Assembly (NCBI RefSeq): GCF_008831285.2
Contig: NC_045149.1
Location: 12,156,629 to 12,220,628, forward strand
Source: Nymphaea colorata
Lineage: Eukaryota; Streptophyta; Magnoliopsida; Nymphaeales; Nymphaeaceae
Direction: 5' to 3'
DNA: 64,000 nucleotides
Numbering within the stretch: the first letter of the stretch is position 1; every line of letters begins with the position of its first letter. The position numbers were made by a program, and so were the translations under genes. The notes beneath the pieces are model-generated. The model worked only from the letters and a program-made list of their open reading frames with translations. It did no database searches and was not told the DNA's origin. Shown in pieces: positions 8,211 to 64,000 of this stretch.

Positions 8211-8218
8211 AGGGGGAA

Positions 8219-15342: not shown

Positions 15343-15420
15343 TTCAAGCGATCTATATATGTGTGTGTGAGCTCTTGTGAGAATGCAACTGCGTCTGCGA
15401 CAACCGACTGGTTTGGAAAG

Positions 15421-15430
15421 GAATATATAA
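15421..15430 (-). promoter_or_regulatory. Candidate TATA box of flotillin gene
   Basis: The minus strand reads TTATATATTC about 80 bp upstream of the chosen ATG. A start site about 30 bp downstream would leave a short 5' UTR of some 50 bp and would exclude the upstream in-frame ATG at 15456 from the transcript. This supports the shorter protein. Confidence 0.45.
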
Positions 15431-26028: not shown

Positions 26029-26099
<71 letters not shown>

Positions 26100-28654: not shown

Positions 28655-28693
<39 letters not shown>

Positions 28694-31582
28694 TCTCTCT
28701 CTTTCTTAATTTAATTGTGTTATTTCTTTGAATTGTCTTTATTGTTTTAATAATCTTTATGTGACTGCATGTAATTGTCTATTATTTGGTGACAGCACTT
28801 AACTGCATATAACTGGCAATTATGATGATCAACCACAAAATGAACCATGATATTGTGATGATGCCTATTTTATGTACTTCCTCTCTCATGTCATAACGTG
28901 AATGATACAATGCTAACTTTTTACATGCTTTATTTTTGCCTTTCAGTAAAAGAATTTTTTCATTAATTCATTTATTGAAATTGGCATATTTCATTACTTG
29001 ATTTACTATTTTCAGCCATTAGTGCAAAATATACTTTTGGTTATTTTGTTAATCCATGACTACAGCTTCATACATACATCCAGTTTTTAGATAGACAATA
29101 ACACATAATACTAAAGAAATAAACAAATAGCAGTATCAAGAAATCACATGGAAACTGAACCAACAAAAAATTTGTGATAAATAACATATATGATCCAACT
29201 CTTGTCTGTACGGTGATTATACTTGCAGACTATGTATCAATCAGAAAGTTATAAATCACTAAAGGTGAACTGGAGCTTGTATTATTAGAAAAAGAGCACG
29301 ATGAAAGTAGCATTCATCGGGATTAAGTCCCCACATAAGATAACCAATATTTTCTATTTAAAGAAAATAACTGTCACATGAGTTATCTAAAGAAGATACC
29401 CACCATTAATACTAGGGAATATGACAGGGTAACAAGGACCCTGAAGCTGAAGAGAACTATTCCTCATAGATGGAGTGAGAAATTCAAAGTAATCATAATT
29501 TCTATCTATCCAGTCATCCACGGTGAGGCGAATATCCCCATCAGGGTAGTCACACACCCAATTGAGTGAATCTTCTGATGGAATAGGGCACTCCATCAAG
29601 CAGACGGCACGTGCATCTGAGACTTTGAATTTTGTTTCCGGCAAACTGCTCTCATACACTTGATTTGGATTTACCCAGTATCTAACTTCCAGTTCTCGGA
29701 GATTTGGCTCCGCATGCTTATCCCCACAGACATTTCCCTTGTAATCAAGTCCATAGACAAGCCTGGGATGAACACATACCATCACAGTTAGAACACCACA
29801 CACAAACACACAGCTTCAGCCTTCAAGGGCATCAACACAAGCCCCTAAAATTCATCAATAGAACTATACATTAGATCTAAAGTAGGTTTTTGCAAGTGAA
29901 AAGTCATCAGGACACAAGCCCTTTATATTTAGGAAATTAAATCACTTTATCATCACCAAATGTCTAATACCTGGAACAGCTGCAATGAGCATTTCGCATA
30001 GAACTCCACCAGCACAAAGGAGAAGCAAAAAAATAGCTTATCAATAATAAGGAATCTATCTATCAGCAGCCCATTATAATGGTTACAACTTACAATAGAT
30101 GAGAATCAAAATGAGTTTTGAATATGTGAAGATGTGCTCATGTATGTGTGGTAAAGCCACAATACATTGAGAAGAAAGAGTTTCTCTATGCATGCAAACA
30201 TGCACACATGATCAGTTTCATTTTTTACTCTCTTGGGAAAAAACTGCAGCCAACCAGCCACGCATATGTAAGAATGACGGTACCTTTTCAAATAAGTGGA
30301 GATTGGGAATAGTATAAAAGTTCAAAGTATGCACTTGGCAGCATAATCTGCCACCTGTAGTCATGGAAAAGCAAAATAGGTGTGCATGTTCACTGAAGCA
30401 TACAGTTTCCTAGTGGTGATCACATGAATAGAGAGCAGTGCTACTTAGATTTGTACATGGGGAGAAACAGAGTCAAGAGAAACAGAGTCAAATATTTATG
30501 AATTTACAACTTCTAATGTTGCGTGTATGCCCTATCCCTAAATGAGAATATGAGAAATTGACCTTCTTGTTTCCGACAGATATCCTCCTAAAGAAAATAT
30601 GCTATTAGAATATCAGTATTTCAGAACATAACCATGGGGTCTGCCACTTTGTAGTTTGTACTACTGCAAGCAAGAACAGAAAAAGCAGAGTACATTACTC
30701 TCCTGGTCCAAAGCTCCCATATAATCATATAAAAATTGCTGCAATCCCCTCGGAGCTACGAATGAAAGTAGCCTGTGAGACATCACCAGACTAAAACTTG
30801 TGATAAATACGTAGTGGGAAGGCTGTTCAAATAATGCATGGTTCTTCGATATATCATCTGCTTTTGCAAGAAGTAGCTGGTCAGAGGAATCAACCCCATG
30901 TTTCTGTATTCAAAGACCAAGTATTTTATATTTTCACCAAGCAATGGCCATCTAAAGGAAGAAAAACGACAACAAGAAGGACAAAGAGCACCTCACGTAG
31001 GCATGGATGCGTAACATACATATTTTTGAAATTCTCTAATAATAACACAAGCAGGAGCAGAGGCGTCGTGATTTCCCGAAAAAGACCACGTACTGGAATT
31101 CCTAGGTCCGACCAAAATAACAGTCACATGTCACATCCCGTCTCTCATAATGCAAACAGTTTCAAACGCAAGAGCCAAACTAAAATATCAGTAGCAAACA
31201 GAGGATCACCCAGAGGGGACTCAATATAAAGCGTGTAGATCGTCCCCAAACGCAACTAGAGATCAAGAAGCGCCCGTGAACTGCAAAGAAACAACCAACT
31301 CACCCCCACGGGCACCACCATAGGTCCATAGCTAATTCCTCGTCGGTCAAATCCAAATGCAGAGCAGGAAGAGAGTGTGTACCTCAAAGGATTGCCTTGA
31401 TTGAAACCAAAGCTAGAATTAACAATCATGGCAACCCAGAAGGCGATAAAGATGATGAGGAAGACCACGTCCCTGCATTTCCTGTTGTGATTAATGATGC
31501 CACTTTGCTGCTGAGGATCCCCATTGGGGTGCGCGGCGGATGTCGGGTACCTCCCTATGATTGCACCAAGAGGACCTCCCAT
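20971..31582 (-). CDS. CTL1: Choline transporter-like protein (CTL1/CHER1-type)
   Basis: A complete ten-exon gene: 31582-31383, 29762-29404, 26957-26812, 25948-25765, 23537-23464, 23378-23265, 22676-22320, 22103-21846, 21557-21330, 21156-20971. The exons sum to 2106 nt, 701 residues plus stop, with all phases consistent and GT..AG introns. MGGPLGAIIGRYP at the start, a first membrane helix (about 39-57, FLIIFIAFWVAMIV), a large extracellular loop with Cys residues and an NSS site (about 68-235), and about nine further hydrophobic segments from residue 245 match the plant CTL family (Choline_transpo domain, C-terminal half; GKVNVTGDVILFLG near 590). In Arabidopsis CTL1/CHER1 acts in choline transport and endomembrane trafficking, affecting sieve-plate formation and auxin carrier sorting; a similar role here is inferred. 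Introns 1-4 are long and AT-rich with CT and GT/GA microsatellites; intron 6 carries a SINE-like insertion. No lesion seen. Confidence 0.95.
23036..23195 (-). mobile_element. tRNA-derived SINE-like insertion in CTL1 intron 6
   Basis: On the minus strand the 5' end contains TAGCTTAGCTGGTTAGACC, a good pol III A-box, and about 45 bp on GGGTTCCCGTG, a partial B-box. The 160-bp block is flanked by related 20-mers at 23016-23035 and 23196-23215 (16 of 20 positions agree; both contain TATTT and ATCAGC), consistent with an old target-site duplication. There is no coding capacity. It could alternatively be a tRNA-like pseudogene. Confidence 0.5.
26031..26094. repeat. Compound GT/GA microsatellite in CTL1 intron 3
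   Basis: A GT run (about 26031-26064) passes directly into a GA run (to about 26094). It lies within intron 3 of the CTL1-like gene. Confidence 0.9.
28653..28703. repeat. CT microsatellite in CTL1 intron 2
   Basis: Two CT runs interrupted by one TAT, inside the 2.4-kb second intron. Confidence 0.9.
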
Positions 31583-44664: not shown

Positions 44665-44955
44665 AAAATGAGTTGGTCATTTGTCCACCCAAAAAGATTA
44701 AAATCGCAATGGAGTTTTTTTGTCAAAAAGAGGGACAAATGGGTCTTGCTCACCAAAAAAGACTAAAATTACATTCTAAAAGGAGGTTTTTTGTCAAAAG
44801 GATGAACAAATGTGTCTTGCCCACCAAACGACTAAAATCGCCCTCTAAAAGAAGGTTTTTTGTTAAAATGAGGGGCAAATTAGTTTTGTCCACCAAAAAG
44901 ACTAAAATCACTCTCTAAAAGGAATTTTTTTGTCAAAAGGAGGAGCAAATGAGTC
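44665..44955. repeat. ~69-bp tandem repeat, about four copies
   Basis: GACTAAAAT recurs at 44761, 44830 and 44900, with a diverged copy at 44696. Each unit carries a variant of TTTTTTGTCAAAA, a GGGACAAAT-like word and CCACCAAA. A frame stays open through the array (44634-44918), producing repeated Lys/Arg-rich segments; I regard it as a by-product. Confidence 0.85.
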
Positions 44956-45950
44956 TGAAATGCTTGATTTGGATTTGAACTTAGGCTTTGGATCTAATTT
45001 GTGATCCGAAATTGACATTTTGTGTTTTGATAAAAGTGTATAGTCTTTTGAAAAAATTTGGGGTGATTATAGGCGTCAACTATAATATGTAGGAAAACGC
45101 CAGTTTCTAATTGTAAGTAACTAAGGATGCCATTAGATTTTGAGCTACACATTTTTCTAGTTAAAAGCATGTAACCTTTTTATTTTTTTTATTTGTCATG
45201 CTACAATCAAACATCTGACCTGTTGCACTCGTAGTGGATTGGCTAAAATGTATTGATTCATCTGCTTCATTGGGGTCTGCTCAATGAAGCATACCAACTA
45301 GTTTGACCTGATCAAATTAAAAAGAACAAGCTAATCCACTCTTCTACTCAACAAGATTGCAAATAAATTATTGTAGAAAGCTTCTCCATCACATGTATCT
45401 GCTAAAATAATGAGAAACATACCAACAAAAAGCATGAGAACAACTCAATTCAACTCGCAATTTGCCATAATAGTCAAAGAAGAAAAGAAAGAAATTAATA
45501 ATAAGAAAGCAACACAAATTCAGCATAAATAGATTTTCATTTGGCAAGATTATACTGGCACTGGAATTTCTCATCAGTTTCAAAATAACAAAAATCAAAC
45601 AGGATACAGACGATGAATATGATGATCGCTAAAGGTAGCAAATTACAAAAAAATTTGGAAGTTCAGAATGAAAAATCCATAAAAGTATTAATCAACCTAT
45701 CAGTAACTCACGAAGGAAAAAGGAAGAAAAGAGTTCATGCGACGAAGTGGGCTGCAATTTAAAATAATTTTACATAGAAAACAAAAAAAAAATGTCAACA
45801 GACATGGCAACGAAAAGTGCACCTTTCTGTGTTTCAAGAACGAGCGGGACCAGTCAAGTGACTGAGGAAACCAGAGCAACCCTGATATGATTTATATGGT
45901 AGCAAGTCTCGTGCTCTTTCATAAAGACAAAGTCGGGTGGGTGGAAAGGG
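44956..45950. other. Upstream region of the tetraspanin gene
   Basis: No gene. AT-rich DNA leading to the putative promoter. Confidence 0.4.
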
Positions 45951-46417: not shown

Positions 46418-49400
46418 ATGAGTGCAGGAATGAGCACTTTCATGATCAAATGGATCAACCTCCTGTCCACGGTACTCCGAATACTCCCTCTTTGCTCTTG
46501 CCTGCTTCTGTAACTTACACTCTTTTGTTCACTGGTTCTCGTTATTTTCTTTCTTCTTTGCAATGTGTTGCGTAATTTTTTCCCGAGGTCCTGCTGTTCA
46601 CTTCTTCCTGGGTGAGAAGTTGTCTGCAGTTGGTGTCATGGGTTATGGCGTTTGGATGAGTAGTCAGCATGATGACTGCCGAAGGTTCCTCGCTCTCCCT
46701 GTTTTGGCCCTTGGGGCGGTTGTCCTCGTGATGTGAGCTTACCATTAATCTCTCTTACTTTTGATGTCTTGATGTTGCTTTTATGTCCTCTCACTCTCTA
46801 TAAGCATTGTTATTGCTGCCTCTCTCTGTCTCTCTTGATCAGATCCCTCTTTGGGTTTGTGGGTGCTCTCAAGAACGTTGCAATACTGCTATGGCTGGTA
46901 TCCTTCATCTATGTACTGGCTCTTAGTTTTTATTTTGTGCAAAATCATGAATGATGAGCTTTTTACTTTTTAGAAGGATGGTCATAGTGTTGTGTGTCGA
47001 GTCCTTGACAGCCCTTATGCAGTATCTGCTAATGCTCTGCTTGATTCTACTGGCAATCCTGGTCGTCACAGTGCTCGCGTAAGTTCTTTTGATTCAAACG
47101 CTTGTCGATTCTTCTCTTTTCTGTTTTTCACCGTGTGGTAAACCTGGACCCTTTATGATGATATACGAAATTTGAACCTTTTTTCATTTGCATTTTCTTC
47201 TCTGTTTGAGAATACTATATTTCAGCATTATATTTCGTTCTCCTTTATGATCCCCCCAAAAAGCAAAAGCCTATACTGATTAACTGATGTGACTGCAGCT
47301 GGTATTTGACGTTCTTTTGTTTGCTATTTGTAGTTTCTCATACACCGCAGGCTTTGCACCAAATGCGATGTAGTTTTTCTGTAGGTTTATCTGCCCTCCC
47401 CTTATTCATTAGCTTCTGAACGAATACCATAAGGTTTCCTCGTCTGAAAAGCATCTACATTCATTCACACAAGTGACAAATCCACAAATTTGTAGTACCT
47501 GGACTCTGTACAGGTATAATTTTACCCCATGTATATTACTAGTCCAATACTTAGGTTTCACTAAGAAATCAATCAATGTGATGCCATAGAGCGTTCATGT
47601 TTCATTTTAACAATCGGCTAAGCTGCTCAAATTCATAATGGTTGAATAATTAAGAGGGGGGAATAATCCCTTGTTGTGGCCTTGTTCATCTTAAAAAAGG
47701 TCCTATTATAGCTGATAGTTTTTTAAGTAAAATTAAGATGTTTGAAGAGGCAGAGGACTATCTTGCTTATCATATGTTCCCAAACTGGGCATTATTATCT
47801 CAAGCAACAGTAAATTTGACAATTGAAAGAAAAAGCTGTTACCATATTTGTGAAGCTGTTTCATTTTGTTCGGGTCAACTTTGAGGTGTATCTGAAAGAT
47901 GTTTTGGAATTATCTTACAAGATTCTTGAGATGCCCATTCAAAATAATATCTGAAAAGAAAAGAATTGCATCTGTTTTGGCAACATAATGTATTTGTGTG
48001 GTCAAAGGAATGATGTGTTTCTTGTGCTGGAGCTTTAGCACTTTCATGCTCATGTCCACAATGTGGATGAAGCACCGATGAGTGGGCATCTCTACAGTAA
48101 CATTGTACCACTGGCAAAGAGGTTGGGGGGGTGGGGGGTGGGGGGTGGGGGGGGGGGGGGGGGGGGATGGGGGCGGGGTGGAGGGAGGCAGCGGTAGGGG
48201 GAGAGAGAGGGATTAACTAGAACAACAAAAATGGTGAGCTTGTAGATTTACAGTTTTTGCTTCAAGGGGCCTTGATCATTCAATCAAACTCCTCACATAG
48301 TGGTCTTGGGCATAAACAGTTGTATGTACCTCTTGGTTTCTCTTGTTGCTCAGCTTGACAGTTAATGAAGGTGTAGTGAGACTCAATTTCTATTAACTAA
48401 ATATAAGTCCTTTAAAAGTTATCATAAAGGATGAGCAGGCCCTCTCATCTGTTATGACAACTATGGACATGGCTTATGGAATCACAGAAATTAGGGCAAA
48501 CAGGTATAGGAAATCAAGAGGTAGGAAATAGATCAGACATAAATCAGAGGAATAAATATGGATGCAGAAAAGAAGGAAGGAAACAAAAAATGAAGTATTC
48601 AAAGAAACAATGTTATCCATATTGTACGATACAGACCCATATTGTACAATACCACTTGTATGAGTGAAGAAAACCCATACGATACGGGCCCAATACACGA
48701 TACGCTGGCGTATCGTGCCTGTATCGGATGTATTGTACGATGTGGGCAAGTGTATCGTACGTATGGTATGATGCACCCTAAAATTCTAAAAAGGGGCCCA
48801 AGGCCCCCTTTTGCATCGTTCTTTTAAAACCGGAATCCTCTCTTTCTCTCTCTAAAACTTCTGTAAAAGCTGTGAGAGGGAGAGATTTTGCTGGTTTTTC
48901 CTAAAAATACTCATTTGATGATGAAACCATTGATTTGGGCCTAAAGATTTGCTCATGGGAATGGGGGAAGTTTGCTTCTTGCTTGAAAGAGAGCTTTCAT
49001 CATTTTAGGGCTACTAACACGAAGAGGTATGAAATTTCTCATTACCATCTGCCATGCTTGATGAGGATGATTTTGATTTTTTTAATAACCTTGAAGGGCT
49101 AGAAAAGTTTGTTGAAGGAGAGCCATGGAATGTGGATATTGATATTCCATTTGAAGGCATTGGAGCAATTCCAGAAGACAATGATATAAGGAAGATGAAG
49201 ATGAAAATAAAGATGAAGATGAAGATGTTGAAGATGATGATTAGATTAACACATTGATTGATGATAATCATGTGAATTTGTAATGACTGATGGTTAATTG
49301 ATTATAACTTATATGTGATGATTTTTTTTAATGAAATGCATTTTTCTTGATTTTTCTGACTTGTAGCTATTTTTTCCAATGTTGTAAAAAGCGTATCGTA

Positions 49401-52400
49401 AGCCGTATCGGTCGGGCTTTAAGATACGCCGTATCATAAAATATCGTAACATATCGTATTTTTTTTTTAAAATAATAAATCAGGAAAAATTGAAAAAAAA
49501 ATCGAAAAATTCATAAAAAATCAGTAAAAAGAAAAAATAATAAGTTCTTCATAGAAAACATGTTTTTGATAATGATAGACTTATTATTGCTATAAAGTTA
49601 CGTGTTCATCATTCATAGACATCAAAATTCATAACAGTATCATTCTAGAAACTTACAAAACACAAAACATTCAAGATTCAACAACCATAGATTGATAAGT
49701 CATAAAATCCGTAAGTCTATGAGATACTACATCAAAAAACAAGTTCTAAATGTTATGTATTATAAATTTACATCACAATAGGCCCAATACATATAAAATT
49801 AAAGCACTTTTGACTCTCATTCATAATCTTCATCATCATCATCTCCATCTTCTTCTTCATCTTCATCTTCATCATCTCCATCTTCTTCTTCATCTTCATC
49901 TTCAAGAATTTGAAGATCCTCACCAACATATTCACCACGAGGAGACTCTCCTTCATCAACAAATCCTTCTGTTGCTTCAGCTTCAAGGTTGAAACATTGA
50001 AGATCTTCATCAAATATTGTAGTTGGTTCTTCCTCAATCCATGGCTCTAGATCGTCCAAGTTTTCCAAGCTGATAGGATCAAACTGAGATGTGTGCTTCC
50101 TTGCTAATGCTTTTTGTAATTCTTTATGTTAAATAAGAGAAAACTTGTTAATATATAATTACATATAAATATATTGTACAAAAAATGTAAATATTAAACT
50201 ATATTACCTTTGTTTCAACCTCATATTATATCGAACAAAGACAAGGTCATTCAATCTTTTATGTTCGAGCCTATTCTTTTTTTGCTATGGATATGTTGGA
50301 ACACGCTCCAGTTTCTTTCGCATCCACTAGCACTGCATGTCTGGCTGAGGACTTTGATTGCAAACGTGTTAGGTTTGGACAGTCAAACCTAAACCTATTC
50401 CACCATAAATCTAAACAAAAATATAACAAATCAATGTGAAAGTTCTAAAAGAATCAAATGTAACAAATGCAAAGTAAATTAAAAATTTTTATGTATTTAC
50501 CTGGACGCATGGTTGTCCTGGCTCGAACGGTGCCAGATTCTCCCATGTCCCGAAAACAAGTAGCATATAGATTCAACTCATTGTGCATAGCATCTTGTTC
50601 TCTAGAATCTGTCACTAACACTTTAATACAATTCAACAAACCATGCAGGACTTCTCTGTCCTTCTTAAATGTAGGAGAAAATCTAATTGCAGGATTTAGA
50701 TAGTAAGCTGCTGCATGAAGAAGTTGATGAAGCATTCCAGTCCACCTTTTATCTATAATCTTCCATATGGGCATATATAATTTTTTCTTTCCTTTCAAGT
50801 TGTCTCAAATTGCCTCTTTTGCTTTATCCATAGCCTTGTATAAGTACCCTATGAAAGGTCTATCCTTGCTGTCAACTAACCTGAGAACTTTAACTAATGG
50901 AACACAGACCTTCAATAGTTTCAAACATGATTCCTAAAATTCGTTATTAAATATAATATCCACAACTAAAGAATCATTTCTTTTATGAGCATGTGGATTA
51001 GGCCTAAGCGTCGGGCCGGGCCGCCACCGGGTACCCAGTACCCAGCCCGGTCGGGCCCGATGGTGCGGCCCGGCCCAGCCCCCATGCTCCTCCTCCTCCT
51101 CCTCCTCCTTCCGTCCGACCGTCCTCCATCCTCCGCCTCTCCTTCTTCCCCCTTCCCCTTCCACCTCCTCCCCCTCTCCTTCTTCCCCCTTCCCCCTTCA
51201 CCTCCTCCGCCTCTCCTTCTTCCCCCTTCCCCCCATTGGGCCGAGCAGGGCCGGGACCCGGGATATCGGGTCGGGCCGGCCCAGCCCGGCCCGATACCCA
51301 ACCCTAATGTGGATATGCAACTCATTCTTCACTAGCGAACATTTGCCTCAAAGGAGTTCTTTGTTTCACCATACTCTGCACAGTCAATACATTTGTGGCA
51401 AATCTAGTTTGTGCAGGTCATATTAATTCAACTCTTCTTGTAAACTTTCTCATCAAACTCAATACATATGCATGATTATAGATAAATTTTATTACCTCTT
51501 GGCATTGGTCAACAACTGATTTCATATCATGCATCTCATTAAGATCTTGAAGCATTAGATTAACACAATGAGTGACACATGAACTCTAATAAAATGTTCT
51601 ATACTTTTGAAATAACAGATTCCCTGCAGCTCTATAATTTGCAGCATTGTCTTTAATAAACTGTACAACATTTTCAGGTCCAACTTCTTGTACGACATTA
51701 TCAAAAACATTGAACAAAGTCTCAGCAGTTTTAGAAACATCAAACAAATCAAAAGATTTTAAGAACATTGTACCTTTAAGGCAATAAACAAGAAAATTTA
51801 CAAGTGTTCTTGACCTTGTATCAATCCTTCCATATGACATAATGGAGCAACCTGTTTCCTTCCAACATAATTTCAACTGATCACAATATTTAGACACTTC
51901 TTTCACCATATCTTGAAGAATTTTGTCCCTCAACTGATGATATTGTTGAATAATATGTGTTAGGTGGTATTTTTGAATATTTAAGAGTTTAGGAACAACT
52001 CTTTATAAATAAGTGTTTTATTTATGGACCTCTTTTGTAATTTTTTAGTTTACCCTAATTCTCATTTAACATGAGATTAGGGCAGCTTTAGTGAATACGA
52101 TAGAAAGTTCTCTCTCTCTCTCTCTCGTTCTCTTCTCTCCTCTCCCTTGGCTGCACATAACATGGTATCAGAGCCCAACCTTCTTTGGGACTGAAACCTC
52201 TCTCACCGTGCTCATCCTCTGTCTCTTTCTCTTCCTCTTCTTCTATTCTTGTGGATAGTTTTGAGAGCACGACAGGCTGAATGTGCATATTGGGCTCGAT
52301 CTAGGGGTTTCTTAAGCAAAAGATTAAAAACCCTAGATCAATGCCTTGTTGAAGTGGACGTGGATGGAAGTTGCAGGTGTCTCCCTCACGTGGCAGAAGT

Positions 52401-55400
52401 TTCCTTTGTGGTCAGTGGTCACTACTTGTGGTCACTACTTGTTGAATGGAAGTCGCTGCAGCCGTGGATATTACAACCTTTTTTTTTATCAGCCGTGGAT
52501 CTGCCCTAGGGTTCTGCCAGCCGTGGATCTGTCCTTCCTTTTGTTGGATGTTGCTGCCGTCGATTTGCTATAAATTTCAGTCAGTCGTGGATCTGCCCTA
52601 GGTGATATCTGTCCTTTTTGTTGGATGTTGCAGCCGTGAATATGAATTCTTTCTTTAACGTGGATCTGCCCTTGCTGGTGTTAGATGTTGCAACAGTCAT
52701 ACTGCTCTAAGGTTCAGTCAGCCTTGGATTTGCCCTAGGTGCGATCTGCTCTAAGTTTCAGTCAACCGTGGATTAAAAATCCCTTATCATTTGCATACTT
52801 TATCATCCCTTTCTGCGGTATATATATTAGTGTTGTTCTCTTTTTGTGGGAGTTGTGATGGAGCTTAGATAGCAGTCTGATATGGGAGACAATTCTAAGA
52901 TCGAGTCTCATACTGAACACAAGGTGGTTGGGAATCCTTTCTTCTATGGTTCTACTGTGAAATTAGATGGTCACAAGTATGAAATTTGGTCACGAATGTT
53001 TATGATGTCTATAGTAGGACATCAGAAAGACCATATCATTGAAGAAGATGAACCGAGTGTTAAAACTGGGAAAAATACCACATGGAAAGAAGATAATAGT
53101 ATTGTTATGTCTTGGATCATGAACAGTGTGCAGACAGATATAGCTCCTACTCTTGCCTACTATACGACTGCCAAACAAATGTGGACGTTCTTGAGACAAA
53201 CTTATTCTCATGACAAGAATGTCTCAAAAATTTTACAAGTTGAGGAAGAGTTACTCAAACTGCAGCAAGGTGAATTGGAACTATCTCAATACTTTGCTTC
53301 AGTTAAAGCTGCGTATGAACGATTGAAGGCTCTTCGACCTCCATGTCAGGCATGTTACAAGACGCATTTTGAGCAGACTATGGTGGCTAAGTTCTTGGCT
53401 GGTTTGTCCCGTAAGTATGAGGTAGCAAAAGTTCAGATGTTTACTGGAGCAGAAATTCCAGACCTTGCTGAGACATATAATAGACTCAGTAGATTGGTTG
53501 TATCTCTTTCTCAACCCCAGAGTGAGTCTCCTTCTGCAGCCTTTGCTGTGTCTGGAGGGCGTGGGCAAGCCACTAGGGGAAGAGGCTCAGGTCGTGGTGT
53601 AGGGGGCAGAGGAAGATTTCAATGTATATTCTGTGGAAAATTGGGACATTTGGAAGATAGATGTTGAGACAAACATGGTAGACCGGCTTCTACTTCCCAT
53701 GGTAGGGGATCTAGTACTTCAGGGGGCAGAGGAACCTTCTCTTCTCAGATTCCTGTAGGGTCTGCCCGAGCTGCTACACCACTTGGAGAGACTCCTTCCT
53801 CGATGAATTCTGAGAACTCCACAGTGACTATGAGTAAGGCAGAGTATGATCAGCTTATGGCTCAGCGATCTCTTCCTACCACGATGTCTACAGCTGCCTC
53901 CTCGGTCATGGTGGATTCCTCTTTAGTCTTTATCTGCTGCTAGTACTTCTTCTCATGAACCAGGTACTATGTGGATTATTGATTCTGGGGCTTCGAAACA
54001 CTTTTGCAGTCAGCCTCACGTATTTACTTCATTGCATCGTTTTCCACAGCCTCAATATGTTAGGCTTGCCAACGGAAAGCTTTCTCCTATTATGGGAATT
54101 GGGGATGTTAAACTTCCTGGTTCTATCATTCTTTCCCATGTTTTATATGCTCCAGAGTTTCTTGCTAACCTTCTATCTGTTACTCAGTTGACGAAAGATT
54201 TGCGTTGTAGAGCCATATTTATATTTGATCCTGGTTCATGTGTTTTTCAGGACTTGCAAAATGGGAAGACGATTGGTGGCGGCCATGAGGAGTTTACCTA
54301 CTGTCGGAACCAGTGGAGGGCGTGGCATCTATGGCTCTATCTAAGCCAACCCCATATCAATGGCATCTCCGACTAGGCCATCCTTCATTATCCAAGCTTC
54401 GTGGTGTTCTCCCTAATATTTCTATGTCTGAGTCATTCCAGTGTGAGGCCTGTCAATTGGGCAAACACACTAGAAGTAGTTTTCCTTCTAGCAGTAGTTC
54501 GTCGAGTCATGCAGTTTTTGATCTTATTCATGTTGATGTTTGGGGGCCTAGCCGGGTTGTAAGCCGGGCCAAATTTAGGTATTACCTTGTTATTGTTGAT
54601 GATTTTTCTTGTCTTAATTGGGTGTTCTTGTTAAAAGAGAGGTCTGAAGTTATTTGTATTCTTCAAAATTTCATTATTGAAATAAAGACTCAGTTTGATT
54701 CCATTATCAAAAACATTTGCACTGATAATGCTTGTGAGTTCAAATCCAATACCTTGCTACAGTTTTACATCAAATATGGAATATGTCCTCAATTCACTTG
54801 CCCCCACACTTCTCAACAAAATGGTATTGCCGAACGTAAACATCGTCAGCTACTTGACATGGCTTGCACTCTCATGATACATAGTTGTGTTCCGGCGCAA
54901 TTTTGGGGCGATGCCATACTCACTGCATGTTACCTAATTAACCGCCTTCCATCCTCGTCTATTGACAATCAAATTCCCATTCAAGTTCTCTATCTAGATA
55001 GACCCCTGTTTTCCCTTCCACCCAAAGTCTTTGGGTGCACTTGCTTTGTTCACATCCTTGGTCCTAATAAAGACAAACATGGTGCACAATCAATTAAATG
55101 TATTTTCATTGGTTATCCAAAACACCAAAAGGGTTATATCTGTTTTGACTCCCACACTCATAAGCAGTACATCAGTGCGGATGTTACATTCTTTGAGTCA
55201 CGTCCTTATTTTCACTCTACTCCATCATTATCCGACAGGTCGTCGTCTATGCCTTTACCTATCCCACCGGTTCCCCTACAGTTTGTTCCTTATGATTCAT
55301 TTCCAAGTGCCAGCAGATTCCATGATCCCCCACTGGTATACACCCGCCGACACACTCCTGCTCAGGATTGTCCACCAGTTGCTTCTCAGGATGTAAGTAT

Positions 55401-58400
55401 TTCTGATGTTACTATTCCTGCCCAGGATGCTCCTGACATGTCTTTGGACTTACCCATTGCTTTACGCAAAGGCAAGAGACAGTGTACTCTTCATCCTATA
55501 TCTCAGTTTGTTTCTACTACTGGTATTGGTGTGTGTCTACAGCAATTTGTGTCAGCATTGTCAGTACATTCTATTCCCTCCAACCACCAACATGTGTTAC
55601 TGGATCCTCAGTGGCAGCAGGCTATGCAGGATGAAATGGAGACTCTAATGCAAAGGGGCGCATGAGAATTGGTTGATCCTTCATCTGGTTGTGAAATTGT
55701 AGGCTCCAAATGGGTATTTACCATCAAGTACTTATCTGATGGCTCAGTGGAGCGCTACAAAGCTCGTCTTGTAGCAAAAGGTTATACCCAAACCTATAGG
55801 GTGGATTTTTTTGAGACTTTTTCTCCTGTGGCGAGGATGGGCACCATACGTCTTATTGTCTCTGTTGCAGTATATTATGATTGGCCCTTATATCAGCTGG
55901 ATATCAAAAATGCCTTCTTATATGGAGATCTTGATGAGACTGTGTATATGCAACAACCTCCTGGCTTTGAACGTCGGTGGTAAAGTGTGCAGGCTAAAGA
56001 AAGCTATATATGGCTTGAAACAAAGTCCTTGTGCTTGGTTTCATAAATTTTCAGAAGTTGTATTAAAATGTGGTTTCAAGAGATCTCAGCTGGACCATTC
56101 ATTTATTCGTCAAGAAAGGATCTAGAGGTACTGTGGTGTTAGTGGTGTATGTTGATGATATTCACAGGTGAATGTGAGCAAGAGGTAGCTCATACAAGGA
56201 AATTTCTACAACAACACTTTGTTACCAAAGATCTTGGCCAACTACGATACTTCCTTGGCATTGAAGTTGCTCGTAGTAAGGAAGAAGTGGTGTTATCACA
56301 AAGGAAGTATGTTCTTGATCTGTTACAAAACACAAGGATGCTGGGAGCTAAACCTACAACTCTTCCTATGAACCCACAGGTACACCTATTTGATGATGAC
56401 TTGAAAGAGGTAGCTTCTCGTGCATACAAATCATTGATTGGTAAGCTTCTCTATGTGACAGTAACTCGACCAAACATTAGTTTTGCTGTGGGAAAATTAA
56501 GCCAATTCATGGAAAAACCAAGAAAATCACATTGGGATGCAGCTATGTTGATTGTCAAGTACTTGAAGTCCTCCCCTAGCAAAGGTCTTTTCTTTAAAAA
56601 AGGTATATCTCTTGATGTCAAAGCTTATAGCGACGCAGATTATGCAGGCTCAGTTCATGATAGGAAGTCCACCATAGGGTTTTGTGTGTTTGTGGGAGAA
56701 AATTTCATCTCTTGGAGAAGTAAGAAACAAAATGTTGTTTCTAGATCAAGTGCAGAGTCTGAATATCATGCTATGGCTCAAACGACTGCTGAAATGACAT
56801 GGTTTAGATCCTTACTTGAGAGTCTCGGTATTCCTACTTCTACTCCTATGAAGATGTTTTGTGATAACAAAGCAGTTACTTACATTGCCAATAATCCAGT
56901 ATTTCATGAGAGGACAAAGCACATCGAAGTAGATTGCCACTATATTCGCGATATGGTTCAAGAAGGAATTATCTCAACTATACACGTAGCCTCTGAAGAT
57001 CAAGCCGCTGATATCTTCACCAAAGCCTTGCCTATTGCAGAATTTTTTAGATGTTGTGACAAGCTGAGCATGATTAACATCTATGTTCCAGCTTGAGGGG
57101 GAGTGTTGAATAATATGTGTTAGGTGGTATTTTTGAATATTTAAGAGTTTAGGAACAACTCTTTATAAATAAGTGTTTTGTTTATGGACCTCTTTTGTAA
57201 TTTGTTACTTTACCCTAATTCTCATTTAACATGAGATTAGGGCAGCTTTAGTGAATACGATAGAAAGTTCTCTCTCTCTCTCTCTCTCTCGTTCTCTTCT
57301 CTCCTCTCCCTTGGCTGCACGTAACAGATATGATGACATTTTGAATCTGGGGCCTATAGAAGCAATTGCATTTGCCATGGCTTGGAACTGAAAAGAATTA
57401 GCTGCTTAAATGGAACACATGCATCATAAAACCATTTCCCTATCGTCCTTTGTGCCTGAAGTAGCATATCTTTAGATGTCATTGCAGCACGAATCTGCGG
57501 CTGACAACCTGGGCCAGTATGTGAAGGGAAAAAACTCTTAATAGAACCAACACTAGACCTACCAGTAGGAACTCTACCACTAGGTGGTCGCATACCACGC
57601 CTGACCCCTAATATCTGGTGTGTCTCTTCTTTTCCTTCTCGATATGCCAGATCGACCTCCTTCATATATGATTCCTTTCCCTCTACGATCTCTACCTCTT
57701 GAGCTCTCCAAATCTGTTCTTAGACTGCTATCATCTTCATCATCATCAACATTTTCATAAGCTTTTTCCTCTTCCTCTTTAGCTTCCCAAGGCTCATTAT
57801 AGCCTACATCTGCCTTTTCCATTTCTTTTTGTATCTTCCTTTTTGTTGCAGCCTTGAGTCTTGGAGAGAGAAAAAGTTTCATTACGTTAACCCTAATCTC
57901 CCTTATAAAAGAGATTAGGGTAGAAAAGGGATTTACAGATTACATCAATGAAAAATAAAGAAAATATTGAAGAGGTCTTATAATTCTTTAATATTACGAA
58001 GAGTCACCTAGAAACATAAACTCTTTTAATTCAACACTCCCCCTCAAGCTGGAGTATACATATTAAACATGCTCAGCTTGTCACAACATCTAGAGAAATC
58101 ACCAATAGGAAGAGCTTTGGTGAAGATATCTGCAGTTTGATCTTCTGAAGGAACATGAATAGTGGCAATGGTTTCTGCTTGAACGAGATCCCGAATGTAA
58201 TGGCAGTCCACTTCAATATGTTTAGTTCTTTCATGGAAAACTGGATTGTTTGCAATGTATGTGGCTGCTTGATTGTCACAATACATCTTCATAGGAAGCG
58301 GAATCGACACATTTAGGCTAGATAGCATGGATCTAGCCCAAGTCATTTCTGCTGTTGTTTGAGCCAAAATGTTATATGAAAGAATTTGGATAGGACTATG

Positions 58401-61400
58401 ATGAATCTTTGGCCTTCTTGCGAAAATGGGCACCATTCATATGGTTTTTTCATTGGTCACTTACCATGGATAAGTCAATTAGATGTTAAGAATGGTTTTC
58501 TTTCATGGGGAGCTTGCAGAAGTATATATGGAGCAGCCTCTAGTATATTCAGAAGGGGACCCTAAGAGATATATGTCACCTATGGTTTGACTTCTTGTCT
58601 AAAAGCTTCCCATTGGTAACAACTTGATCATTCTCTCCTAATTTTTTGATGTAAGGGGACGATTACATTCTTGTTGATATATGTTGATGATATCATTGCT
58701 ACAGAAAATGATGAGGCACATATCTAGAAAATAAAAGATATTCTAAGACAAAGATTCAATATGAAAGATCTTCACAACCTTTGATACTCTTTTGGGGTTG
58801 AAGTGGATGCAGAAGACAGTCTTCTTTGCCTTATTCAACAAAATTACACAAATATATTTAAGATTTATTGGAGAAGTCTGGAATGCATGATGTAAGTGCT
58901 TGGTCACTTTCAGTATTCTTACTCAGAAGCTGAGCCAACAAGTGTTTATTTGAGTTGCAGGAACCAGATGCTAAATGTCTTCTTTTATGTGATAATAAAA
59001 GCATTATGTAGATTTCTTTTAGTCTCATTTAACACAGTAAAACTAAGTACATTTGAAGTTTAAACTAACCAATATTGATTGGGCAGAAGATTGAAGACAA
59101 GGAGATCTAGCCTAATTTTCTTCTGTCGAATGATCAGATCACTGATTTATTTATTAAGGGACTTGTGAAGGATATGGTTCCTAAAAGCAAATTTATTCTT
59201 AATTCGAGAATACACACAAGTAAAGGGGCAACTTTAAGTGATGTATCCATATTTATATGTGGTTTGGATCTGGACCAGTTTTTTATTACATTACTTGTAT
59301 CCATTCGTGCAGCATATGTGTAATGCCCATTGTACATAAGTGTATCCTTGTAATTTTTGAACTAGGGGACCCTTTATTGTTAATGAATTACTCACAATGT
59401 CTCCTTCTATTGAGATGTGTGATTTCCAGCCACTTGGTCTTTCTTTTGAATTTCTTTCTATTGTGAATATATTTTGGGGATTCTAACAATGAAGGGCAGC
59501 AAATCTACCTCTGATTATATTATCTTTAGTAGGTAAAGCGATTGCTTGATCCTGTAAAAAACAAGGTTGAGTTACTTAATATGCTTAAGAAGCTGAATAT
59601 CTAGCTTGTCATATTGCAGCCACCTATGCTGATTGAATAAATAGTTTCCTGAAAAATTTGAAATTAGATCTTGATCAAGGCCAGTTCAGTTATACTATGA
59701 TAATGAAGCAAGCGATGAAAAATAGATTTGTAAGCTCGAAAAGTGCACGCTTGTGACTCATATTGGGCTAAAGGTATTTGTGAACATGTTGAGATGAAAA
59801 ACCTGAATATGGGAAGCCTAATAAGTGATCCTGATTTTAATGAATAATTTACAGTGGAAAGTTGAAGTATGGAAAACTCTGTAACTGCCCTTGACAGAAA
59901 CCTATATGGCGCAAGTTTGCAGTTTCATGGCTAGGGAGGAGATGTGGGGTTATGGCCATGACCATGCCCATACCCATCATAATGGATGAGAGGGCTCACT
60001 CATCTGTTATGATGCGCTCTCATCCATTGTGATGGCTGTTAAAGAACTTACATCCCCTTAGTGGAAATTAAGTCCCACTCTACCTTTTAACTGCCATACT
60101 GGGTAGCAGGGGAATGAAGAGCACTTAGAATATTTTGCCTAGCACCACAATGTGAAGAGCTTGATAGAATGATAAAGGTCCCCTTGAAGCAAAACCTGCA
60201 AATCTAAAGCCCAAACTTTTGTTGTTCTTGTTAAGTTTTCTTTTCCTCTTTGCTAGCCATATGTTGTTGCTTCTGAGATTCCTGTTGTTGGTGCTAATGT
60301 TTCAACACCCTCTATGTACACAATCATATATTGCTGTTCATGCATGGGAGACTTAAATTCTGAAGATCAAGAAAGTCTTCTATTACCTTGACAAGCATTC
60401 TGTTATTTGTTCACCAGAAAAGGTACTGTCAACCTAAATATATTATTTGTGCTTGGACATTTCTAACTTTCCGTTCTTAACTCTGTTAACTGCATGGTTC
60501 TTTATTAATATAACAATATGAATTCCTTGTATTATGCTATATCAATCTATGTAAATGAATTATAGAAAATTCTCCTTTTCATGCTTATGTTTTTATGGAG
60601 TTCTTGTGTTGGACCATCTGGAAAATGGAGGATCTGATCCATGATTAAATGGTTTCAGGTTTATTGTTATAAATAATGGCACTGGACATACAGTACCTGG
60701 ACAAAGGTTAGCTACCCATTTATACTTCAGTTTTACTAATTGCTTCTCTGGAAGGTTACACACAGTTGTTAGCTTTGACCTGTGGAAGCTTTAGTGGGAT
60801 TCCATATTGTTTGAAGCATGCATGTTACACTGGGTAAAGCAATGATTGAGCCTCAAAGTGCAAAATGGATGAGGTTCAAGTATTTAGACGAGACGGATTG
60901 AAGTTTGAACTTTGTTTAGAAGATTGTTCGAACCATTATGATATGCTGTGTTGTCATTTCTCTTTCAAAATGTCCCTATTTATGAAAATTGTAAGACTAA
61001 AGTTATACTCTTGAAGTGTGTGATATCTGTTTCTCCTTGAGAAAACAAAACACCTGTTTTCAGGAAATTTTGGATTACCTCCTTCTTCTTAGCCATCTGC
61101 AATTCTGCATCAACTTAGGGTACTGAGGAGGAGTAACTTTTGTTGATCATCGGACAGCTTAATTCTTGAATCCAGAACAGGTTCTTGCTACCTTAGTCTT
61201 TGTACAAGTGAAATCATCTCCTGCTTCTTCTCTTTTCGAATCACTCAGTGAGATTAGCAATATAAATTGTTTGGTCAAGAAATCATAGTTTTATGAGAGC
61301 ATTCACCATCTCTGGTCAAGAAACCATAGTTTTATGAGAGCATTCAGGATCTCTCTTATAAAATTTCAGACTCGTTGCACACTTTCTCATTGGGTTCATG

Positions 61401-61963
61401 GGTTGTAATTCTACCTTTATGGACCAGTATATGTAGTCAATCAACATGAACTTTTTATATTGAAGATGATGGGTAGCATATCCAGAAGCACATTTTACTC
61501 TTATTGACCTTCATGCAGCTTTCATGCAGAATTTCATTTATTTCCAGCTAGCTTCTGTAGTGATATGTCCTTTTTCCAATGCATGAACAGATATAAGGAA
61601 TATCAACTTTCAGAGTACTCATCTCTGTTTAAAAAGCAAGTATGTTATAAATTTTGTTACTAATATTATTGTGGTTATTGCTGTTTTGGTTGTTGAATTT
61701 AGCATATTTTCTTGTACTTTTTGCAGCTAAACAACAAGCATTACTGGGAACACTTGAAAAGTTGTCTTGTTAGACCAGATGATTGCAAAAACCTGGCTAA
61801 GGAATACAAGGTCATCTTTTGTCTACTACTTGGCTTCAAGTTCAAACTAAAAGGTATATGATCTCATTTTGGCCACCCGCTCTTTCTTTGTTCAGATGCT
61901 TAAACAATACAAAGCTGCAATATTGACCCCAATTGAAGCTGGTTGTTGTCGACCACCATCTGA
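46418..61963 (+). CDS. TET10: Tetraspanin-10-like protein (3' end outside window)
   Basis: Exons: 46418-46471, 46620-46732, 46843-46897, 47023-47078, 60659-60706, 61591-61639, 61727-61810, 61896-61963. Phases join throughout, giving 175 residues plus two bases; the final exons (about the last 110 residues of a usual ~285) lie beyond the edge. The start MSAGMSTFMIKWINLLST leads into TM1; GYGVWMSSQHDDCRR is the short first loop; PVLALGAVVLVISL begins TM2, then FGFVGALKN, TM3 YLLMLCLILLAILV, and the large loop with NNGTGHTVPGQR, YKEYQLSEYSS, CLVRPDDC and the plant tetraspanin signature EAGCCRPPSE. This pattern matches Arabidopsis TET10. Tetraspanins organise membrane protein microdomains; TET10's specific role is little known. 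Intron 4 is 13,580 bp and full of nested transposons; intron 8 contains a further Copia. Other introns are 85-884 bp. No coding lesion seen. Confidence 0.92.
47079..48122. other. Left end of tetraspanin intron 4
   Basis: Ordinary intron sequence beginning with a consensus GTAAGT donor. No transposon coding recognised in this part. Confidence 0.5.
48123..48206. repeat. Poly(G)-rich tract in intron 4
   Basis: Runs of up to about 20 G with scattered T, followed by GGCGGGG, GGAGGGAGG and GAGAGAG. It has G-quadruplex potential on the non-template (sense) strand, i.e. in the pre-mRNA. Exact length is unreliable because such runs are prone to sequencing error. Confidence 0.85.
48207..48470 (-). repeat. 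Copia LTR fragment, inverted partner of 59.9-60.2 kb
   Basis: This block is similar to the reverse complement of about 59940-60240. Shared segments include AGAACAACAAAA, TTTTGCTTCAAGGGG, GGCAGTTAA-like, and CCTCTCATC. The right partner follows a Copia RNase H relic and so looks like an LTR; this copy would then be a solitary LTR fragment in the opposite orientation. Confidence 0.5.
48608..48790. other. hAT end-like block with repeated CGATAC/GTATCG
   Basis: CAATGTTATCCATATTG at 48608 resembles the CAATGTTGTAAAAAG at 49377. It is followed by many GTACGATAC, CGATACG, GTATCG words in both orientations. Repeated short motifs near the ends are typical transposase-binding sites of hAT elements. 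Probably the end of an internally deleted element. Confidence 0.4.
49054..49256 (+). pseudogene. Acidic C-terminal tail of a hAT transposase (relic)
   Basis: The frame MLDEDDFDFFNNLEGLEKF followed by EPWNVDIDIPFEG resembles the acidic tail that ends plant hAT transposases, such as the one at 49817-50068 on the opposite strand. Near 49190 the frame shifts; in the neighbouring frame the GAAGATGAA-type repeat encodes Glu/Asp and ends at a TAG (about 49243), whereas the open frame reads Lys/Met. Only this end remains. Confidence 0.4.
49377..49470 (-). other. Presumed 3' terminus of minus-strand hAT element
   Basis: CAATGTTGTAAAAAGCG at 49377 looks like a hAT terminal repeat facing right, followed by CGTATCG, CCGTATCGG, GATACGCCGTATC subterminal words. 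It lies about 350 bp beyond the transposase stop. The opposite terminus was lost or hidden by the Copia fragment at 57844. Confidence 0.45.
50999..51306. mobile_element. hAT-type MITE, family 2, perfect 8-bp TSD
   Basis: A 308-bp element flanked by perfect ATGTGGAT duplications (50991-50998, 51307-51314). Ends: TAGGCCTAAGCGTCGGGCC on the left, TAGGGTTGGGTATCGGGCC inward from the right, related to the element at 36059-36317. The interior has a long CTCCTC/CCTTCCCC pyrimidine tract that creates spurious Gly/Arg-rich and Pro/Leu-rich open frames. It is inserted in the hAT transposase relic. Confidence 0.9.
51944..52162 (+). repeat. 5' LTR of the full-length Copia
   Basis: Begins TGTTGAATAATATG and ends GCTGCACATAACA, TG...CA termini. 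It contains TTTATAAATAAG as TATA region (about 52002) and a CT microsatellite before the end. Confidence 0.95.
52163..52174 (+). other. Primer-binding site (initiator Met tRNA)
   Basis: TGGTATCAGAGC, directly abutting the 5' LTR. This is complementary to the 3' end of plant initiator methionyl tRNA, the usual Copia primer. Confidence 0.95.
52882..57096 (+). pseudogene. gag-pol of the full-length Copia (broken)
   Basis: gag starts at ATG 52882 (MGDNSKIESHTEHK) with a UBN2-type domain and the zinc knuckle CIFCGKLGHLEDRC, where a TGA (53665) replaces an expected Trp. The protease WIIDSGASKHFC (about 53970) is in another frame. A frameshift at about 54310-54370 leads to the pre-integrase HLRLGHPS..CEACQLGKH and integrase core (DVWGP, ICTDNACEF, NGIAERKH), ending at TGA 55663. 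The RT part (FSPVARMG, LDIKNAFLYGDLDETVYMQQPPG) breaks at about 55980 and again near 56125; the catalytic YVDDI is at about 56147. RNase H (YSDADYAGS, SSAESEYHAMAQ, IFTKALPI) is intact to the stop at 57096. At least five lesions make it non-coding as a whole. Confidence 0.92.
57095..57103 (+). other. Polypurine tract
   Basis: GAGGGGGAG immediately before the 3' LTR, the second-strand priming site. It overlaps the last pol codon. Confidence 0.9.
57104..57326 (+). repeat. 3' LTR of the full-length Copia
   Basis: Nearly identical to the 5' LTR. The differences are A/G near position 77, T/G and G/C in the TTTGTAAT...TTACCC region, A/G seven bases from the end, and two extra CT units. Confidence 0.95.
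57844..58036 (-). repeat. 3' LTR of a minus-strand Copia fragment
   Basis: A 193-bp LTR (minus-strand TGTTGAATTAAAAG ... GGCTGCAACA), same length as and about 96% identical (8 differences by eye) to the LTR at 62603-62795. It directly follows a minus-strand RNase H end and polypurine tract. It truncates the 5' end of the hAT transposase relic. Confidence 0.9.
58044..58436 (-). pseudogene. Copia RNase H fragment (minus strand)
   Basis: An open minus-strand frame containing QTTAEMTWARSM, MYCDNQAATYIANNP, HERTKHIEVDCHYIRD and IFTKALPIGDF, ending with a stop at 58044. It is closely related to RNase H of the 51944-57326 element but has a different LTR. The rest of pol is missing; upstream of about 58400 the similarity ends abruptly. 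Confidence 0.88.
58460..59200 (+). pseudogene. Copia reverse transcriptase relic (plus strand)
   Basis: Heavily decayed. Recognisable pieces include the LDVKN..F.HGEL..VYMEQP region (about 58473-58540), the catalytic block ILVDIC/YVDDIIA (about 58670-58700), a segment equivalent to KDL..L.YFLGVEV (about 58755-58805), LLCDNKSIM (about 58980-59010), and LSNDQITDLFIKGL (about 59125-59165). No frame is open throughout. Confidence 0.7.
59201..59484. other. Possible LTR of the preceding Copia relic
   Basis: AT-rich, downstream of the decayed pol end. It could be its LTR, but no termini or partner were identified. Confidence 0.3.
59485..59840 (+). pseudogene. Second Copia RNase H relic (plus strand)
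   Basis: Reads as GSKSTSDYIIF, EAEYLACHIAATYAD and FLKNLKLDLDQGQ with stops between, which corresponds to the RNase H domain of a Copia lineage different from the full-length element. It lies after another RNase H remnant, so it represents a separate insertion. Confidence 0.65.
59855..60240 (+). repeat. Putative LTR after the second RNase H relic
   Basis: It contains a near-palindromic GGATGAGAGGGCTCACTCATC and GCGCTCTCATCC block (about 59980-60020) and matches 48207-48470 in inverted orientation. Placement directly after an RNase H end suggests an LTR. Termini are uncertain. Confidence 0.45.
60241..60658. other. Right end of tetraspanin intron 4
   Basis: AT-rich intron sequence ending in GGTTTCAG before exon 5. 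No transposon remnants recognised. Confidence 0.5.
61273..61354. repeat. 41-bp tandem duplication in intron 5
   Basis: GGTCAAGAAATCATAGTTTT... and GGTCAAGAAACCATAGTTTT... repeat with a 41-bp period (61273, 61314) and few differences. Confidence 0.85.
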
Positions 61964-62602: not shown

Positions 62603-64000
62603 TGTTGAATTAGAAGAGTTTATGTTTCTAGGTGTTTCTTCGTAATATTAAAGAGTTATAAGACCTCTTTAATATTTTCTTTATTTTTCATTGATGTAAT
62701 CTGTAAATCTCTTTTCTACCCTAATCTCTTTTATAAGGGAGATTAGGGTTAACGTAATGGAACTTTTTCTCTCTCCAAGACTCACGGCTGCAACATGGTA
62801 TCAGAGCAGTCTCCTGCGGTAACAGTCAAATAAGTTTTCCGGCGACCTTCTCTTCCGGTGACCTCTCTCCGACGACCTCCTTTTCCGACGACTTTCTTCT
62901 TCTTTCCTCTTCCCGTCACCCATCTTCATCTCTTCTTACCCACCAACAGGGAGGTAGTAAAAGAGATAAAAGTTGGGTGTGCTGCGTGGAGAAGGATTGA
63001 TCACGCGTATGTGGAAGGCGTGATCAGATCCTTAAGTGGGGCTCGTGTCTCCTGTTTGGTATGAAAACCTCAAATCGTGTGGAGCAGCGTTTGGCATGTG
63101 GAGCAGAGTTGATCTGCTGATCGTTAGGGCTGCACACGAGCGGAGTCGAGCTCGAGCTCGGCCGGCTCGAGCTTGACTCGAGCTCGACACGAGTTTTGAA
63201 ACTTCAGCTCGAGCTCGACTCGAGTGACAGACTTCGAACTCGAGCTTGACTCGACGGCTCGCTTATCCTCGGTAAGTCAAACAGCGTGCAGTGCACTGCG
63301 CACGCTGTCGCCCTGGCCTTCCTTTTCGCTCCATCAATGACGACGATGTGGAACTTGCAGCCCTTCCTTTTCACTGCATCGATGACGACGTGGAGTATGA
63401 CATGGGGAGGAGGAAAGGCTGCCACCTGACATGAGCACCCCATTAAGGCATGGGGGAGGAGGAATGGCGTTGTGAGAAAAGAGAAAAAAAGGAGGGAAAA
63501 TGGGGTGTAATAACGAGGGTAAAAAAAGGCGTGAGGGTGAAAAGAAACGTGGCGGCGTGAAGAGAGGCAAAAAAAGAGGAAAATTAAAAAACTTAAAACA
63601 AAAAATGAGATTAAGCGGGAAAGAAAAAAAAGGAAGGAAAATTAAAAACACAAAATAAAAAATGAGATTAAATCGAGCCGAGTCGAGTTTAATCGAGTCG
63701 AGTTCGACTAACTCGAACTCGACTCGTTAACATACTCGAGTTTATATTTAAGCTCGAGCTTGACTCGTATAAAAAACGAGTCGAGCTCGTGTCGAGTTTA
63801 TCGAGCGAGCTCGAGTTGGCTCGACTCGTTGTGCAGCCCTACTGATCGTGAAGGTTGTTTCAGCCTTGTTACTCGAATGACAAGAATGTTAGCAAGATAT
63901 TGCAGGTGGAGGAGGAATTACTTAATTTGCAACAGGGTGACCAGAGTCTTGCTCAGTATTTCGCTTCCCTCAAGTCGATCTATGAACGACTTAAAGCTTT
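62603..64000 (+). mobile_element. Copia element, 5' part (continues past window)
   Basis: 5' LTR 62603-62795 (TGTTGAATTAGAAG ... GGCTGCAACA), primer site TGGTATCAGAGC at 62796-62807, a leader with GGCGACC/CCGACGACC repeats, then a gag fragment from about 63870 reading YSNDKNVSKILQVEEELL, which matches the gag of the 51944 element. The gag N-terminal part expected before this is absent, so the copy is probably defective. A 717-bp MITE lies in the leader. The LTR family equals that at 57844-58036. Confidence 0.88.
63125..63841. mobile_element. hAT-type MITE, family 3, perfect 8-bp TSD
   Basis: A 717-bp element flanked by perfect CTGATCGT duplications (63117-63124, 63842-63849). Terminal inverted repeats: TAGGGCTGCACACGAG on the left and TAGGGCTGCACAACGAG inward from the right. 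Both ends carry many GAGCTCGAG/ACTCGAG palindromic words over 100-180 bp, giving long foldback potential. The central part is purine-rich and lacks a transposase. It is nested in a Copia leader that is itself in tetraspanin intron 8. Confidence 0.93.

Follow-up and report, generated by a model that had tools for sequence, protein, structure and literature searches.

How can a small gene still be read across an intron that dwarfs most of its neighbours? We address this question for a tetraspanin gene of the TET10 type on the + strand of Nymphaea colorata contig C12, which lies in a stretch of 64,000 nucleotides (C12:12156629-12220628, hereafter the window) and whose fourth coding intron measures 13,580 bp. 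The reading we favour, and consider very probable, is that intron 4 has grown by successive, mostly neutral insertions of transposons nested in one another, and is still spliced as one GT-AG intron.

The coding exon borders were placed by hand, and exons 9-11 were read from the 20 kb that follow the window, with positions given as window-equivalent coordinates (Table 1). The resulting model has 11 coding exons and 10 coding introns (148, 110, 125, 13,580, 884, 87, 85, 6,858, 82 and 102 bp, respectively), and its open frame encodes 265 amino acids. Against the Pfam Tetraspanin profile (PF00335) the protein aligns over profile positions 3-225 of 225 with 110.7 bits. On their own, exons 1-4 reach 55.7 bits and exons 5-8 have no Pfam match at E 0.01. 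Exons 1-4 joined to exons 5-8 score 82.9 bits, so that what lies on either side of the large intron fits a single protein. A search of solved structures returned three rows, namely an irrelevant designed TIM barrel (E 0.002), CD53 (0.77) and Tetraspanin-7 (1.1). With the domain extending over the whole length and with many introns, the gene is, as judged from its sequence, a TET10-type tetraspanin, the closer likeness of its 265-residue product to Arabidopsis TET10 being our assumption. The ten coding introns of the model fit the 10-12 introns given for TET10 orthologues in PMC6705802.

Exon 4 ends with GTG-CTC-GC at 47078 and the donor GTAAGT begins at 47079; the acceptor TTTCAG ends at 60658, where exon 5 opens with G-TTT-ATT-GTT at 60659, giving intron 4 GT-AG borders and a matching phase between its flanking coding exons. 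The sequence-only reading had proposed precisely this in-phase junction across 13,580 bp, and its coordinates proved exact, with the rise of the Pfam score on joining pointing the same way. It had also put most of the other complete introns at 85-150 bp, which is the case for five of the six within the window (148, 110, 125, 87 and 85 bp, the sixth being 884 bp). Intron 4 is the longest intron found in the window, and is not the sole big intron of the gene: intron 8 measures 6,858 bp and runs past the window end. As a control, we located peptides of different exons in the choline-transporter-like gene nearby, and from one to the next they lie no more than ~2.5 kb apart; the choice of peptides followed a relative, and one expected exon (between 25763 and ~23384) was not located.

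Most of the length of intron 4 is, by its sequence matches, transposon-derived. Direct matches or element borders account for 7,889 bp (58%), and the assigned share reaches 10,307 of 13,580 bp (76%) when a further 2,418 bp, given to a hAT-type relic by position and reading only, are included. One of the four hAT-like pieces scanned, at 51586-51943, matches DUF659 (E 3e-41, 141 bits), a domain that we take to mark hAT-type transposases; the other three pieces have no Pfam match. We call this a relic rather than an element because only a left-end-like motif was found, at 49377, which we presume to be a hAT terminus; a second end was not found with up to six mismatches allowed, nor were two ends with terminal inverted repeats and an 8-bp target-site duplication (TSD). 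The relic holds a miniature inverted-repeat transposable element (MITE) with the TSD ATGTGGAT and a full-length retrotransposon, Copia-1, in sense orientation to the gene. When the flanks of Copia-1 are rejoined, one hAT frame stays open across the empty site; further upstream, the hAT coding part carries stops and frame changes of its own.

Copia-1 occupies 40% of intron 4. It has a pair of long terminal repeats (LTRs), a tRNA primer-binding site and a polypurine tract (TGGTATCAGAGC, GAGGGGGAG) and the 5-bp TSD GATAT, and in its coding part rve precedes RVT_2, i.e. the integrase comes before the reverse transcriptase. All of these sequence marks identify it as a Copia LTR retrotransposon; stops and frameshifts have split its gag and pol between several frames. 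On the side of the acceptor follow an antisense Copia-2 piece, beyond which no hAT sequence was recognised, and an older degraded Copia in sense orientation. Two LTR-like arms, inverted relative to one another and 79% identical over ungapped columns, lie towards the two ends of the intron. The order of nesting is the hAT relic first, then the MITE, the antisense Copia-2 and the sense Copia-1 into the hAT. A hAT relic with a full Copia inside it, a MITE and Copia remnants in both orientations had been described in the sequence-only reading, and all are present; that the intron is built from nested transposons is backed by TSDs, domain matches and nesting order.

Between the left arm and the relic, 48480-49376 is not assigned: what 48.5-49.37 kb shares with the hAT relic is no more than acidic low complexity. 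An additional Copia remnant, read by eye only at 59.5-59.8 kb, was rejected, as tblastn gave no support. Rfam at gathering scores and a tRNA scan returned nothing in the 64-kb window. A long G-rich tract at ~48125-48182 could hinder polymerase or sequencing.

Intron 8 is a second transposon-enlarged intron of the same gene. It extends from 61964 to window-equivalent 68821 and contains its own full-length Copia, a Copia-2 with the TSD TTAAC and a 3' LTR at window-equivalent 67727-67919, into which a hAT-type MITE with the TSD CTGATCGT is nested. Growth by insertion is thus supported by duplicated target sites in both introns, GATAT and ATGTGGAT in intron 4 and TTAAC and CTGATCGT in intron 8. 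The LTRs of Copia-1 differ at 4 of 219 aligned sites and those of the intron-8 Copia-2 at 5 of 193. At rates of 1.3e-8 and 7e-9 substitutions/site/year, the ages come to 0.7 and 1.3 million years (My) for Copia-1, and to 1.0 and 1.9 My for Copia-2. At 1.51e-9 substitutions/site/year (PMC8626473) they are 6.1 and 8.7 My, respectively. The 95% ranges are broad; for Copia-1 the highest rate gives 0.2-1.8 My.

We compared 17 query pieces with a sample of 20 pieces of 10 kb (200 kb) from contig C12. Copia-1 pol gave two weak matches, the old Copia relic one and the intron-8 MITE one (its first 137 bp, at 73%, in sampled piece L012, 8400-8525), and the other 14 of 17 gave none. No match in this sample was found for 47079-48180 and 60311-60658, which fall within the outer parts of intron 4 that carry no transposon assignment.

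Table 1. Positions of the features discussed, in window coordinates (position 1 is the first letter of the window)
Feature	Position	Strand	Remarks
Coding exon 1 (TET10-like)	46418-46471	+	start codon at 46418; hand-set border
Coding exon 2	46620-46732	+	acceptor GAGAAG weak, hand-chosen
Coding exon 3	46843-46897	+	hand-set borders
Coding exon 4	47023-47078	+	hand-set borders
Intron 4	47079-60658	+	13,580 bp, GTAAGT...TTTCAG; hand-placed borders, in-frame junction
Coding exon 5	60659-60706	+	hand-set borders
Coding exon 6	61591-61639	+	hand-set borders
Coding exon 7	61727-61810	+	hand-set borders
Coding exon 8	61896-61963	+	hand-set borders; intron 8 starts after
Coding exons 9, 10, 11	window-equivalent 68822-68947, 69030-69105, 69208-69276	+	downstream sequence
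Unassigned intron sequence, donor side	47079-48212	+	probably part of older intron; no repeat match listed in window
LTR-like repeat, left arm	48213-48479	-	inverted partner of 59956-60234
hAT-type relic	49377-57843	-	one end lost; holds MITE and Copia-1; DUF659, end-like motif, open frame
hAT-type MITE in hAT relic	50999-51306	.	8-bp TSD
Copia-1, full-length, in hAT relic	51944-57326	+	sense to gene; LTRs 51944-52162, 57104-57326
Copia-2 piece, antisense	57844-58436	-	3' LTR 57844-58036 and RNase H end
Older degraded Copia, sense	58470-59170	+	reverse transcriptase and RNase H remnants; tblastn E 5e-6, 4e-4
LTR-like repeat, right arm	59956-60234	+	inverted partner of 48213-48479
Unassigned intron sequence up to acceptor	60235-60658	+	424 bp; 60311-60658 without match in the C12 sample
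Full-length Copia-2 in intron 8, its start	62603-64000	+	5' LTR 62603-62795
hAT-type MITE in intron-8 Copia-2	63125-63841	.	TSD CTGATCGT
Inverted pair A	48213-48435 with 60019-60234	opposite orientation	near the two ends of intron 4
Inverted pair B	56774-57111 with 58029-58366	opposite orientation	local
Inverted pair C	57844-58036 with 62603-62795	opposite orientation	LTR part; flanks exons 5-8

An intron of this composition might be expected to be rich in misleading processing signals, and the sequence-only reading had indeed claimed many cryptic splice and polyadenylation sites in sense-oriented LTRs. This claim fared less well than the anatomy. On the sense strand of intron 4 we counted 12 AATAAA against 8.2 ± 2.9 in 100 dinucleotide shuffles, and 5 GTAAGT (the true donor included) against 2.6 ± 1.7; at ~1.3-1.4 standard deviations (SD) over the shuffles, both counts are slightly high, with no clear excess. 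For AGGTAAG, a strong acceptor pattern and a pattern of recursive splicing the count is 0, against 0.8, 0.4 and 0.2 expected, which is too few to tell; for recursive splicing in particular, the absence of YCAGGTRAG from intron 4 says little with 0.2 expected. Of the 12 AATAAA, two fall in the Copia-1 body, and its LTRs contain none. What stands of the claim is that each Copia-1 LTR contains one TATAAA, one AATAAG and one AATAAT: since plant polyadenylation signals are loose, the LTRs may carry weak signals. An unusual load of cryptic sites in intron 4 is therefore not clearly supported, motif counts being a blunt tool in plants.

A transcript that ends within intron 4 would leave a 93-aa product, which by the tetraspanin plan comprises the first three membrane segments, because the next codon is TAA when the exon 4 frame continues into the intron. 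With a GTAAGT-type donor in phase 2 this is so by construction. In Arabidopsis, IBM2, EDM2 and heterochromatic marks are reported to favour proper transcripts of genes with heterochromatic introns (PMC4417168), and OsIBM2 is described as acting likewise in rice (PMC7145194); reduced IBM2 function leads to premature polyadenylation in such introns in both species, according to the same sources. By analogy, it is plausible that intron 4 depends on IBM2/EDM2. Under the mechanism we favour, an ancestral intron of perhaps 1.6 kb or less, corresponding to the ends without transposon assignment, would have expanded to 13.6 kb; its elements would carry CHG/H3K9 methylation, as in Arabidopsis and rice; factors of the IBM2/EDM2 type would suppress premature polyadenylation within it, and exon 4 would be joined to exon 5 in planta. 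Failed suppression would leave the 93-aa product.

A different enabler of splicing would be the folding of the pre-mRNA itself. Within the window, three inverted pairs of at least 100 columns connect separate places, and intron 4 holds one arm or both of each pair (pairs A-C, Table 1); a smaller search additionally lists a weak self-complementary stretch at 63143-63252. Were the arms of pair A to pair, ~11.6 kb would be folded out and the splice sites would lie 1,558 nt apart. Pair C has a longer version that connects introns 4 and 8 (57844-58366 with 67422-67919, 91% over 523 columns) and encloses exons 5-8; as these sum to 249 nt, a multiple of three, a direct junction of exons 4 and 9 could keep the frame. 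There is a small chance, in our estimate, that the arms at the intron ends loop out ~11.6 kb and that the competing 91% pair loops out exons 5-8, which would promote either the in-frame skipping of these 249 nt or a circle. The predicted duplexes of the arms, taken with small margins, are far below the means of 30 letter shuffles each: -293 against -114 kcal/mol for pair A (48180-48500 with 59940-60260), -389 against -118 for pair B, and -311 against -49 for the LTR part of pair C, to which the shuffle control for that pair is confined; the longer stem of pair C, computed on stretches slightly longer than the 91% match, is predicted at -863 kcal/mol. On the other side, stems that span 9-12 kb have to compete with proteins, with heterochromatin and with folding during transcription, inverted transposable elements (TEs) are expected wherever TEs accumulate, and without exons 5-8 the tetraspanin score drops to 71.7. 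Stems of complementary repeats have already been proposed for large mammalian introns by Shepard and colleagues, with a human mean of -258 kcal/mol (PMC2773006).

The rarity of the arms would also speak for folding. A search of the 407.8-Mb assembly (783 contigs) with the right arm, in which very common words were skipped, returned matches at no fewer than four places: the two intron arms and, on C6 and C7, two short stretches. The latter are distant copies of the outer and the inner portion of the repeat at the intron ends (L026 1501-1612, L027 1501-1567). Such numbers are lower bounds, however, so that the rarity of the arm is not proven, and most other pieces of intron 4 are likewise without match in the 200-kb sample. 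Were the repeat indeed rare, its two copies in one intron would hint at a single event; against this idea, no flanking duplication was found around the arms. We rejected the arms as terminal inverted repeats of one large Mutator-type element, there being no flanking duplication at both outer ends (no exact 8-mer and no 9-, 10- or 11-mer with up to one mismatch, which an old element could have lost), and as a high-copy LTR family, given only the four matches returned under that lower bound. The right arm is preceded by a purine-rich stretch, as seen by eye, and the arms may be LTR-like or the remains of one local event. The inverted repeats, near both intron ends and around exons 5-8, are the least ordinary feature of the locus, and that they fold the pre-mRNA is a speculation. 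That the end repeats close an 11.6-kb loop enabling splicing, that the Copia-2 pair competes with it and that transposon orientation would thereby set the balance of tetraspanin isoforms is a model we hold to be improbable.

The insertions could instead have in effect broken the gene, with most transcripts ending within intron 4 and the full protein rarely made. The sense-oriented Copia-1 with its AATAAG and AATAAT, the enlargement of intron 8 as well and the in-frame TAA right after exon 4 would agree with this, as would the premature polyadenylation seen with reduced IBM2 function (PMC7145194, PMC4417168) and the report that large-intron genes of grape are richer in clusters of a single expressed sequence tag (EST), 46.0% against 32.8% (PMC3058033). 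However, the frame is complete over 11 exons despite two large introns and a Copia-1 that is ~0.7-6 My old, depending on the rate, and AATAAA is without clear excess; we regard a broken gene as improbable. An assembly error fusing two unrelated halves can be all but set aside: while the G-rich tract and the repeats are spots where assemblies can fail, the window contains zero N, the matching TSDs and the hAT frame open across the insertion make the middle coherent, and the exon halves fit one protein.

Some points nevertheless weigh against an intact gene spliced across a grown intron. The GT-AG borders of 10 of 10 introns are partly by construction, because the exon borders were chosen by hand to fit GT-AG and frame, and exons 1/2 and exon 11 are the least certain parts of the model. 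The length of the ancestral intron 4 is a guess. An open frame can persist for a while after a gene is silenced.

Large introns filled with TEs are an ordinary, well-known kind in plants, of which the present one is a good specimen without being new in kind. For grapevine, 2,697 EST-supported introns of 3-100 kb are reported, with >80% repeats and a Copia:Gypsy ratio of ~6.5 to 1 (PMC3058033); intron 4 is similarly large, repeat-filled and Copia-rich, although many of the grape insertions are described as very young, whereas here we find nested relics and full-length copies of ~1-9 My, depending on the rate. In rice, 4,227 gene models are credited with 5,809 introns of the heterochromatic kind (PMC7145194); these OsIBM2-regulated introns are, like ours, long and TE-associated, and lie in transcribed genes. 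The rice introns are enriched close to the promoter while ours is intron 4 of 10. Intron 1 of Arabidopsis RPP7, with COPIA-R7 (PMC8116057), is likewise a case of a Copia in an intron of a functional gene, a likeness that for the tetraspanin is one of anatomy. In a shared gene set, introns of Chloranthus and six magnoliids are given as 1.3-3.7 kb, compared with 153 bp for Arabidopsis and, for rice, 372 bp (PMC8626473): there too LTR elements lengthen introns with coding length alike, as a genome-wide trend rather than at a single locus. Large mammalian introns with inverted SINE/LINE stems (PMC2773006) share the proposal that complementary repeats bring splice sites closer, but ours are few stems of LTR-type repeats in a plant, and in mammals, too, the proposal is described as a hypothesis.

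Elsewhere in the window, the choline-transporter-like gene (20977-31582, - strand) shows Pfam Choline_transpo in two of four pieces scanned, and a single open frame of 542 aa at 13834-15459 (- strand) encodes a flotillin-like protein with an SPFH/Band 7 domain. Two more degraded Copia elements, at 602-2818 (-) and 4053-8426 (+), were recognised by open pieces and by tblastn with pieces of Copia-1. At 44685-44956 a 62-nt sequence occurs four times with a spacing of 69-71 nt, the copies being 71-87% alike to the reference copy. Past the window, at window-equivalent ~76500-83000, lies a tandem array whose unit measures 681 bp (at a shift of that length it matches itself to 90%), which exceeds the 500-bp period limit of the tandem-repeat search.

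The locus thus offers a clean, datable case of intron growth by nested insertion without destruction of the gene, and combines two enlarged introns and defined inverted repeats in one small gene. It therefore lends itself well to testing whether long introns filled with transposons are spliced thanks to IBM2-type masking by heterochromatin or to RNA folding.

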